The notes under the pieces: model-generated | Seen by the model: only the letters and a program-made list of their open reading frames with translations | Database searches by the model: none | Told to the model about the DNA's origin: nothing | Shown here: piece by piece, positions 56,659 through 62,058 of the stretch | Position numbering within the stretch: the stretch's first letter is position 1 | How the letters are laid out: each line of letters starts with the position of its first letter | Assembly (NCBI GenBank): GCA_008501585.1 | Contig: QQUN01000005.1 | Location: 1 to 64,000 of the forward strand | Reading direction: 5' to 3' | DNA from: Pseudomonadota bacterium | Lineage (GTDB): Bacteria > Pseudomonadota > Gammaproteobacteria > Burkholderiales > Rhodocyclaceae | DNA: 64,000 nucleotides | Made by a program: the position numbers and the translations under genes

Positions 56659-56687
56659 GAGCGCCCGGTGCGTGGCGGTTGGCGCGC

Positions 56688-57325
56688 AGCCCGGCCGAGG
56701 GCCACAGGCCCGACGCCGGGGCCGTGTGCCCGATAGGCAATGCTGATCCCGGCGTCGCTGCGCTCGGCCGGGCTACGGTGTTTGCCTGTGCCCCGGATGG
56801 CGGTAGGGCGGACAAGCGCAGCGCATCCGCCGTGTTCATGGCTGCCCTGGTGGCGGATGCGCCTACGGCTTTGCCGGCACGGCGATGTCGTGTACGCGTA
56901 GCCCGGCCGAGGGCCGCAGGCCCGACGCCGGGGTCGTGTGCCCGATAGGCACTGTTGCTCCCGGCGTCGCTGCGCTCGGCCGGGCTACGGTGTGTGCCTG
57001 TGCCCCGGACGCGGTAGGGCGGACAAGCGCAGCGTATCCGCCGTGCCGATGGCTGCCCTGGTGGCGGATGCGCTTACGGCTTTGCCGGTACGTCGATGCC
57101 GTGTACGCGTAGCCCGGCCGAGGGCCACAGGCCCGACGCCGGGGCCATGTGCCCGATAGGCAATGTCGATCCCGGCGTCGCTGCGCTCGGCCGGGCTACG
57201 GTGTGTGCCTGTGCCGCGGACGGCGGTAGGGCGGACAAGCGCAGCGCCTCCGCCGTGCCGATTGCCGCACTGGTGGCGGATGCGCCTGCGGCTTCTTCGC
57301 CCTACGGTTTTGCCGGCACGTCGAT
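56688..57325. repeat. Three-copy tandem array (~212-bp unit) of REP-like hairpin modules
   Basis: Units begin AGCCCGGCCGAGGGCC at 56688, 56900 and 57111; each holds AGCCCGGCCGAG...CTCGGCCGGGCT and GTAGGGCGGACAAGCGCAGCG...GGCGGATGCGC modules and ends in TTTGCCGG(C/T)ACG(T/G)CGATG(C/T)C. Confidence 0.92.
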
Positions 57326-59295: not shown

Positions 59296-59326
59296 ATTTG
59301 AAACCCTGGAGTCACTCCAGGGTCAA
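59296..59326 (-). promoter_or_regulatory. MerR-class promoter/operator for the CDF transporter
   Basis: On minus strand TTGACC-19 nt-TCAAAT with perfect dyad ACCCTGGAGT-G-ACTCCAGGGT in the spacer region. Confidence 0.8.
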
Positions 59327-59357
59327 CAAGCGCATCACAAGCAAGAAGGAGCCCCCC

Positions 59358-59774
59358 ATGCGAATCGGCGAACTCGCCCACGCCTGCGGCGTGGAGGTGG
59401 ACACCATCCGCTACTACGAAAAGGAAGGCCTGCTCCCCGCAGCCACTCGTGCACCCAACGGCTACCGCCTGTTCGGCCCCCTACACGCCGAACGCCTCGC
59501 CTTCATCCGCCACTGCCGCGCCCTCGACATGCCCCTGGCCGAGATCCGCCAATTGATCGAAGTCGCCGATCACCCGCAGGCCGACTGCGGCGACGTGAAC
59601 GCCCTCATCGACGCCCAGCTCGACACCGTGCGCAAGCGCATCGCCGCCATGCAGGCGTTGGAAGCGCAGCTGATGGCGCTACGCGCCCGTTGCGGTGAGC
59701 AACGGGCGGTGGAGGCGTGCGGGATATTGAAGGAGTTGATGGCGGTGGGGCGGGATGAAGGGGGTAAAGGTTGA
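59358..59774 (+). CDS. MerR-family heavy-metal responsive regulator (CadR/PbrR type)
   Basis: MRIGELAHACGVEVDTIRYYEKEGLLPAATRAPNGYRLF; Cys at ADCGDVNALID and VEACGIL; divergent from CDF transporter. Confidence 0.9.
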   Translation: MRIGELAHACGVEVDTIRYYEKEGLLPAATRAPNGYRLFGPLHAERLAFIRHCRALDMPLAEIRQLIEVADHPQADCGDVNALIDAQLDTVRKRIAAMQALEAQLMALRARCGEQRAVEACGILKELMAVGRDEGGKG

Positions 59775-59876
59775 TAGCAGGGATTGAAAATGTTGTATTC
59801 AATATTGATCTGTGTGTTGGCACGAGCTCACGAATAAAGTATTAAAAAACATCGCACCTTTCGCTATCGTTTGGTC

Positions 59877-59904
59877 AAAAATATCAGGTTGTTATTCTGA
59901 TATT
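59877..59904 (-). terminator. Intrinsic terminator overlapping the 3' codons of the island gene
   Basis: Minus strand AATATCAG-AATAACAAC-CTGATATT followed by TTT; TGA stop lies in the 3' arm. Confidence 0.7.
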
Positions 59905-61061
59905 GGGATACATAGAGGTAATCGGGTTGGCTTGCACGGAACCGCCACCGAGCGACATACGAGCTTGACTGGAAATTTCCGCTTTATACGTTTCAAGTTT
60001 TGGAACTAAAGCATAGATTGAAGAGCAATCAACTACAACAGTTCTAAACTGGCTGATGTCAAACGGAATTGGGTCTCCTTTTCTTATGATCTGAACTACT
60101 GGCAAGCTCATCATATGCCGCAGAGCGAGTTCGTAGAAAACGTTTGGGTTGGTAAACGATAAATCTGCTACGACCAACTTCGATTTCATTACATATTCGA
60201 TAACCTGATTTGTGATCATTCCGGGGTGTTCTATTTGGTCTGCCCGGACGACCTTTAGACCCACAGACTCAATTGCTGGCTCAATGATAGAGCCTAGAAA
60301 TAGGTCGGAGTGTTGTCTGTGTTCTGAGCCATCAGCGCCAATCGGAGTGACGTAGAAGCACACTTTTTCAAAATCTACGCCTGTGTGTGTATTTTTCCCC
60401 AACTCTGAGATGATTGCCGGTGTGATTTTTTCTAGCTGCAAAGCAGTTTCTACAGGGGCAGAAGTCAATCCTTCCAGAGCGTGTTCAACATCGATAATTC
60501 TCTGGGCTCCTGAAAGAGTTTTAAGGAGGCCAACTTGTTCCGAATTAACTATGAAATTATCGACTAGAGTCTCTATGTCGTCTTCCGCGTAACCTGCGTC
60601 TTTCAGAGAGTCCGCGAGAACGGTGTGTATAGGAAGCTTGTTTCCCTTGAAAGTTTCATATAGCAGATTGAATGGTTCTACGGAAAGTATTGCCGTGGAA
60701 ATACGCGCATTCGCCCGAGCTCGTTCGGGGACATCTTCCGATGTGGCGCGGTTCCCGTTCTCTGTTAGCTGTAGATGCTCTGTTCCTGGCCCACCGTCAA
60801 TTAGACCGTACTTTGCTGCGTTAGAAACAAGTGTCCGAGAGGGGCCACTCTCTGGCGCTTTTTGGATAGCATCAAAGAGAGTCAGCCGGCGAATTTGTTG
60901 GCTTCCGGCATTCTTTTGTATTGATTTTGCGAAGTCTAGGGCTTCGGTGTAGGCACATAGTGGATATGGCCGTACGCGCCGAGTCCTTTTTTTGCTTTCG
61001 CCGTATCCTCCTTAGTATCACCGTTGTCGGCGTCTGAATAGTTTTCGTTCATGTCTTTCAT
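59884..61061 (-). CDS. Frame-split gene: N-terminal winged-helix-like region plus C-terminal TIR/nucleoside 2-deoxyribosyltransferase-like domain
   Basis: Start MKDMNENYSD (61061, GAGGAA RBS), A7 run at 60987-60993, then -1 frame open to 59884: ...RTRRVRPYPLCAYTEALDFAKSIQKNAGSQQIRRLTLFDAIQKAPESGPSRTLVSNAAKYGLIDGGPGTEHLQLTENG...VCFYVTPIGADGSEHRQHSDLFLGSIIEPAIESVGLKVVRADQIEHPGMITNQVIEYVMKSKLVVADLSFTNPNVFYELALRH. Confidence 0.75.
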
Positions 61062-61244
61062 TCGTTCCTCAAATGCCGTGGGTTGAGATATTGGAATGCA
61101 AGCCTTCGCCTGACGGCGAGGTCCATCACGGTACGTAATGGTGCGTGTACTAAATGCTGCTTTCTCTTTGTGAGTACGGCATAAGCATACTGCAAATGGG
61201 TATCTGCCTTCGAACGATGTAAGTCCTAACTCATCCAAAGCCGC

Positions 61245-61622
61245 TCAAAACCCACCCCTCAACACCCCCACCACCCACCGCTCCCGCGCCGACAACCCCC
61301 ATTCCGCCCGATGGATCAACCACAAGGTATCCATCACCGCCGGGGCGCCCTCGACCACCTGTATCGCATCCTGCCGCGCGAAGGCTTGCCGGGCGTAGCG
61401 GGGGAGCACCGTAAAGCCGAGGCCGCGGGCGACGGGTTCGAGGATGAGGGTGATCTGCTTGGTGAAACCGGTGCTGCGCTGGGCGCGGATGCCGGGGGAG
61501 CGGCAGGTGAGCAGGCGGTTGGCCATGGCGTGGCCGATGGGGTGGTTGATGAAGCCGAGGGCGTCGAGGTCGGTCCGGGCGTGTCGGTGGGCGTAGAGGT
61601 TAGGGGCGGTGGCGGTGACGCT
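61245..61622 (-). pseudogene. LysR substrate-binding-domain remnant lacking the HTH half
   Basis: SVTATAPNLYAHRHARTDLDALGFINHPIGHAMANRLL...LEPVARGLGFTVLPRYARQAFA, abutting the end of the MerR gene with no N-terminal half present. Confidence 0.7.
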
Positions 61623-62058
61623 ACGCGCGGGGGCGCCGCGGGGCTTTGCGGGTTGGCGCGGCTTGTGTGTTGAAGATGCCGAGCGCGGCGGCCTTAAGGA
61701 GTTTCTGGAAGCTGGGGCAGGCGGCGTGGCTGGGGGCGGGGCAGGCGGCGGCGTGGCGCAGGCCGTCGCTGACGGCGCGCAGGCGTTTAATGAGGGTGTC
61801 GATCTCGTCCGCCTTGGCCGACAGCAATTGTCGGTCGATGTTGGGCTCGCCATTGGGCGAGAGCATGGTGTGGACTTCGTCGAGCGACAGGCCGGCGGCC
61901 TGGCCGAGGGCGATGAGGGCGAGCTGGTCGAGCACGCCGGGCGCAAAGCGGCGGCGCAGGCCGTCGCGGCCGACCGAATGGATGAGCCCGCGCTTTTCGT
62001 AGTAACGCAGCGTCGAGGCGGGCACGCCGGTGCGTTTGGCGACCTCTGAAATATCCAT
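61621..62058 (-). CDS. MerR-family transcriptional regulator
   Basis: MDISEVAKRTGVPASTLRYYEKRGLIHSVGRDGLRRRFAPGVLDQLALIALGQAAGLSLDEV; C-terminal CPAPSHAACPSF. Confidence 0.9.
   Translation of the reverse strand: MDISEVAKRTGVPASTLRYYEKRGLIHSVGRDGLRRRFAPGVLDQLALIALGQAAGLSLDEVHTMLSPNGEPNIDRQLLSAKADEIDTLIKRLRAVSDGLRHAAACPAPSHAACPSFQKLLKAAALGIFNTQAAPTRKAPRRPRA

Follow-up and report, generated by a model that had tools for sequence, protein, structure and literature searches.

In this Rhodocyclaceae genome, a candidate single-gene effector of the defence type, probably acquired horizontally, is likely to have been broken by a recent indel in a run of As close to the 5′ end of its gene. The gene lies on the minus strand of the window, the stretch of 64,000 nucleotides analysed here and the reference for all coordinates. 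This copy is most likely recently switched off or barely expressed, and not a new control device.

Two reading frames make up the gene (Table 1). Translation from the ATG at 61061, which is directly preceded by GAGG, meets a TAG at 60938-60936 after 41 codons. The -1 frame, open from stop to stop for 375 codons (61011-59884), is entered through a -1 shift at the A7 run and remains open for 367 codons downstream. An earlier reading of this DNA from its letters alone (hereafter the sequence-only reading) had described this split, and its sequence, frames and coordinates are as it stated. It had also noted that the downstream frame has no start near its 5′ end and that the ORF list first picks it up at an internal TTG (60468); both statements are borne out. 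An internal start for this frame was therefore rejected, as ATG, GTG and TTG are all absent near its 5′ end and the nearby AAGGAGG serves no in-frame start.

Table 1. Features of the split gene and its surroundings in the window.
Feature	Position	Strand	Remarks
MerR-family gene	59298..59774	+	left border of variable spot; conserved in siblings
Frame-split gene	59884..61061	-	frame 0 begins at ATG 61061; -1 frame continues from A7 and stops at 59884
C-terminal TIR-like / NDT-DNPH1-fold domain	59887..60381	-	conserved NPNVFYEL motif
N-terminal helical domain	60445..60993	-	two winged-helix-like segments; residues ~7-190 of the open frame
Frame-0 product without shift	60936..61061	-	41 residues
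Modest stem	60936..60986	-	immediately 3′ of the A7 run
A7 run	60987..60993	-	site of frame change; frame-0 codons GCA AAA AAA GGA
SD-like AAGGAGG	61007..61013	-	3′ end 13 nt upstream of the A7 run; may stimulate frameshifting or be there by chance
3′ remnant of LysR regulator gene	61245..61583	-	upstream of the split gene; C-terminal part of PF03466
Second MerR-family gene	61621..62058	-	right border of variable spot; conserved in siblings

The downstream frame is a real gene and not a chance opening, because 367 open codons would arise at this base composition with a probability of ~3e-9, none of 2000 first-order Markov simulations reached that length (the longest gave 243 codons), and relatives match the frame over its whole length. 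The AT-richness stated in the sequence-only reading is evident, with 46.6% GC in the split-gene block against ~66% in the surrounding region. By codon position, GC content is 0.56, 0.40 and 0.43; the last of these values compares with 0.82-0.89 in five neighbouring genes and is similar to the 0.45-0.52 of three relatives. No sigma-70 consensus promoter was found, which is weak evidence in a genome that is not that of E. coli.

Four full-length relatives carry the main argument about the frame. The closest, L074 (60% identical), came from a search of the order, and L003 (52%) turned up when 399 genomes from this family were searched; L066 (48%) and L039 (47%) came from IMG/VR, where a single-protein query returned nothing and alignment queries returned two contigs. 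Each of the four is a single uninterrupted ORF, the intact form being a protein of ~400 residues, and where the window has its A7 run, six or more As stand in none of them. At the DNA level, L074 can be aligned to the window in both flanks of the run and further upstream, the two genes start alike (Met-[Asn/Asp]-Glu), and a 5-nt length difference between them falls at the run. As judged from this alignment, frame 0 and the -1 frame of the window together make up one gene, whose length changed at the run.

Such genes are rare: samples of the family, order, class and phylum contain no close relatives except L003, L074 and L004, the last an N-terminus only, at the end of a contig. Searches of E. 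coli genomes gave no near copies, and searches of plasmid and phage records gave none for the N-terminal domain.

The sequence-only reading had listed programmed frameshifting, phase variation, recent inactivation and error without choosing among them. We favour a recent inactivating indel because the relatives are intact, the slippery site is common to none of them, and the downstream frame has been cleanly kept. This clean frame also argues that the break is recent, since a long-silent frame would decay; the lesion would be both recent and silencing. A survey of prokaryotic frame transitions treats singletons such as this one as likely indel mutations or errors (PMC3711429). The broken copy would then be an ordinary case of accessory-gene inactivation, and it cautions that genes of this sort escape ORF callers.

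Functional -1 ribosomal frameshifting (or transcriptional slippage) at the A7 run would instead yield a small, regulated amount of full-length effector, and such low output would suit a potentially toxic protein. The preserved downstream frame fits this reading, as do the in-phase A_AAA_AAA, the SD-like AAGGAGG upstream and the stem directly 3′. In E. coli the heptamer slips at >0.1% with no stimulators present, and many IS elements contain it; SD-like elements 6-17 nt upstream, a range that includes the spacing found here, are treated as stimulatory (PMC4066793). This combination of A-rich in-phase heptamer, upstream SD-like element and modest downstream stem is shared with dnaX and IS-type -1 frameshifting (PMC4066793, PMC3711429); unlike those sites, however, the one in the window is conserved in no relative. 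The heptamer is indeed in the phase of the slippery rule, as had been pointed out, but this adds no weight, since the same phase results automatically once an A run that is read in frame has suffered an indel. The statement that no strong hairpin lies downstream goes a little too far. Immediately 3′ of the run, 51 nt fold with an energy of -16.4 kcal/mol (z -2.2), which places them within ~3% of shuffles, whereas longer stretches are not outstanding (z -1.1 and -0.75). No Rfam element was found near the site. On balance, we consider frameshifting at this run unlikely.

A homopolymer error in assembly or sequencing, with the true gene in one frame, has less probability than frameshifting. Errors of this kind typically arise in homopolymers, and the break is known from one assembly, all four relatives being uninterrupted. 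Against this, a comparison of 194 well-matched ORFs (~104 kb) with sibling G200 brought up no other convincing mid-gene frameshift, and, if the data were accurate short reads, seven bases would by general knowledge be a short run for errors. We also rejected an assembly error affecting the window at large: the sibling-guided ORF comparison gave a few split candidates, none of them a convincing mid-gene frameshift. Most lay at the 5′ ends of stop-to-stop ORFs, which contain upstream sequence, and one examined closely was an antisense frame.

Less probable than either is a fuller proposal in which single-gene abortive-infection effectors of a winged-helix-like plus DrHyd/TIR-like family, their N-terminal sensor swapped between two classes of TIR-like enzyme, would use -1 frameshifting at A7, helped by the SD-like element and the stem, so that in this lineage little of the toxic full-length protein is present until it is needed. 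Least probable is a phase-variable switch, with the effector turned on or off as the A run reversibly changed its length in the population. In favour of it, a position close to the 5′ end is where one would expect a switch in a gene that may be costly, the run of the window and that of L074 differ by 5 nt, and poly-A runs of at least seven are treated as possible phase-variation sites (PMC3711429). Against it, the run is absent from the relatives, only one allele was seen, and seven As are by general knowledge short for efficient switching.

With an inactivating indel as the preferred reading, the nature of the intact protein becomes the more lasting question. An AlphaFold model of the open frame, built from 38 aligned sequences, has a mean pLDDT of 87.5 and consists of two confident domains joined by a poor linker (residues 192-208). 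The sequence-only reading had likened the C-terminus to TIR and nucleoside deoxyribosyltransferase-like (NDT) domains, and here the structural and profile evidence agrees with it. Foldseek against the PDB places DNPH1 and NDT proteins at the top with a probability of 1.00, at an E-value of only ~3e-3 and TM-scores by target of 0.5-0.67. A profile of 23 C-terminal domains matches DNPH1/Rcl (E 1e-6), and the domain is recognized by the PADLOC 'Effector TIR' model (3e-9) and by a PHROG (7e-42). Pfam gave no match to the window protein, while relatives match PF05014, PF10137 and TIR_2; a PDB sequence search with the single protein returned nothing useful.

A Tyr-Glu pair is invariant in the 23 C-terminal domains and aligns to the YELG segment of Rcl. 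The Glu of YELG is catalytic in DNPH1/Rcl, and the predicted catalytic Glu of the window protein is residue 294 of the open frame, within NPNVFYEL. The YEL motif and other conserved positions are kept in the window copy. The protein thus has in common with TIR-like/DrHyd (NDT-DNPH1) proteins the C-terminal fold, with its five-strand Rossmannoid core, and the YEL glutamate aligned with the YELG of DNPH1/Rcl; unlike them, it has an N-terminal winged-helix-like domain and is without a Pfam match. The TIR-DrHyd-SLOG class is reported to include NADase effectors and makers of cyclic ADP-ribose in immune systems (PMC9503650).

The C-terminal domain is also common in staphylococcal and streptococcal phages (H41-H80), at ~30-46% identity over ~110-150 residues, in proteins mostly annotated as hypothetical. 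The one strong match in a viral structure library (E 4e-9) is a siphovirus protein with the name CMP hydrolase, aligned across 169 columns only. In the same genus, the protein L006 has the C-terminal domain alone and adjoins genes that read as phage tail-like.

Modelled alone, the N-terminal domain reaches a pLDDT of 93 and shows two segments of helices, with a beta hairpin after each. It likely comprises two winged-helix units, to judge from this predicted structure. The winged helix proposed for the middle of the protein is compatible with the model, but the fold and sequence matches are weak: the best fold matches, MntR-like DR2539 and the winged helices of SelB, have E ~0.1 or worse, Pfam, NCBIfam, PADLOC and PHROGs give nothing confident, and a search of PDB sequences with the N-terminal profile returned nothing useful.

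The same N-terminal domain occurs with other partners. In L033, L036 and L078 it is joined to a more distant NDT-like domain, and in L075, L076, L077 and L082 to a TIR of the CAP12/Pycsar type (PF10137, E 5.5e-15 to 1e-19); PADLOC lists the latter four, through their C-terminal part, as PDC-S35 and TIR effectors. These four form a candidate sister group of effectors. Six further proteins (L034, L035, L037, L038, L079 and L080) lack a TIR-like domain; in them, the N-terminal domain leads into a C-terminal tail that is short and of a different kind. By analogy, the exchange of enzyme partners by a single N-terminal module may match the build of abortive-infection sensor-effector proteins.

The split gene occupies a spot between two MerR-family genes (window 59775-61620) whose content varies within the genus. 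The spot is empty in sibling G176, where the flanks are ~60 bases apart, and in G221 it holds a gene that reads as methionine-gamma-lyase-type. Siblings G200 and G239 have an intact LysR gene together with other genes, and G110 also has different genes. In the window, the spot contains the split gene and the 3′ remnant of a LysR gene, 82-86% identical to the intact LysR genes of G200 and G239. Of the relatives, L039 and L067 adjoin phage terminase/portal-like genes, L066 adjoins a serine recombinase, and L003 adjoins a toxin-antitoxin-like pair (a weak match).

This context, with its variable spot and mobile relatives, and the domain architecture support a defence-type effector, which was the suggestion of the sequence-only reading; its function is a prediction from these features. 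Probably the gene is swapped among bacteria and encodes a suicide-type anti-virus enzyme. It would be an acquired candidate for a stand-alone TIR-like anti-phage gene, with a predicted anti-phage role and NADase activity. In the intact protein, the N-terminal winged-helix-like part would presumably sense a trigger or bind DNA or protein. Upon an infection cue, the C-terminal domain would hydrolyse the N-glycosidic bond of NAD+ or of a nucleotide by means of the conserved glutamate, and this hydrolysis would stop the infected cell. The enzymatic activity, the substrate, the sensing and the anti-phage role of the effector are all putative. In this genome, translation from ATG 61061 would end after 41 codons and leave the system off, save for rare slippage.

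Several known systems resemble this arrangement in part. CAP12/Pycsar-effector TIRs (PF10137; PADLOC PDC-S35, PycTIR and Effector TIR) are linked to it through the relatives in which the window's type of N-terminal domain is fused to a PF10137 TIR, and the window's C-terminal domain, like these effectors, matches a PADLOC TIR-effector model. Unlike them, its C-terminus is of the NDT/DNPH1-like type and no cyclase or partner gene adjoins it. PADLOC found no cyclase, partner or other known defence gene among nine neighbouring proteins, and membership in CBASS or Pycsar was rejected on this ground. SpbK (PMC12847820), the DUF4062 protein Swarozyc (PMC13174449) and other stand-alone TIR-like NADase defences likewise combine a sensing part and a TIR-like enzyme in one protein, and relatives of the window gene occur, as in that comparison, on prophage-like contigs. 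The window gene differs from SpbK and Swarozyc in the families of both its N-terminal and C-terminal domains, and its activity and phage trigger are predicted ones.

The intact relatives define a family that the libraries searched do not cover. A single N-terminal domain that pairs with either of two TIR-like enzyme domains, and is met beside phage genes, beside a recombinase and in a variable spot, has the typical appearance of a modular abortive-infection sensor. The intact family is thus a concrete and testable candidate, and lasting interest lies there, the frameshift being probably an ordinary lesion.

Elsewhere in the window, an intergenic, GC-rich tandem repeat at 56683-57294 consists of 2.9 copies of a 211-nt unit with 92% matches.
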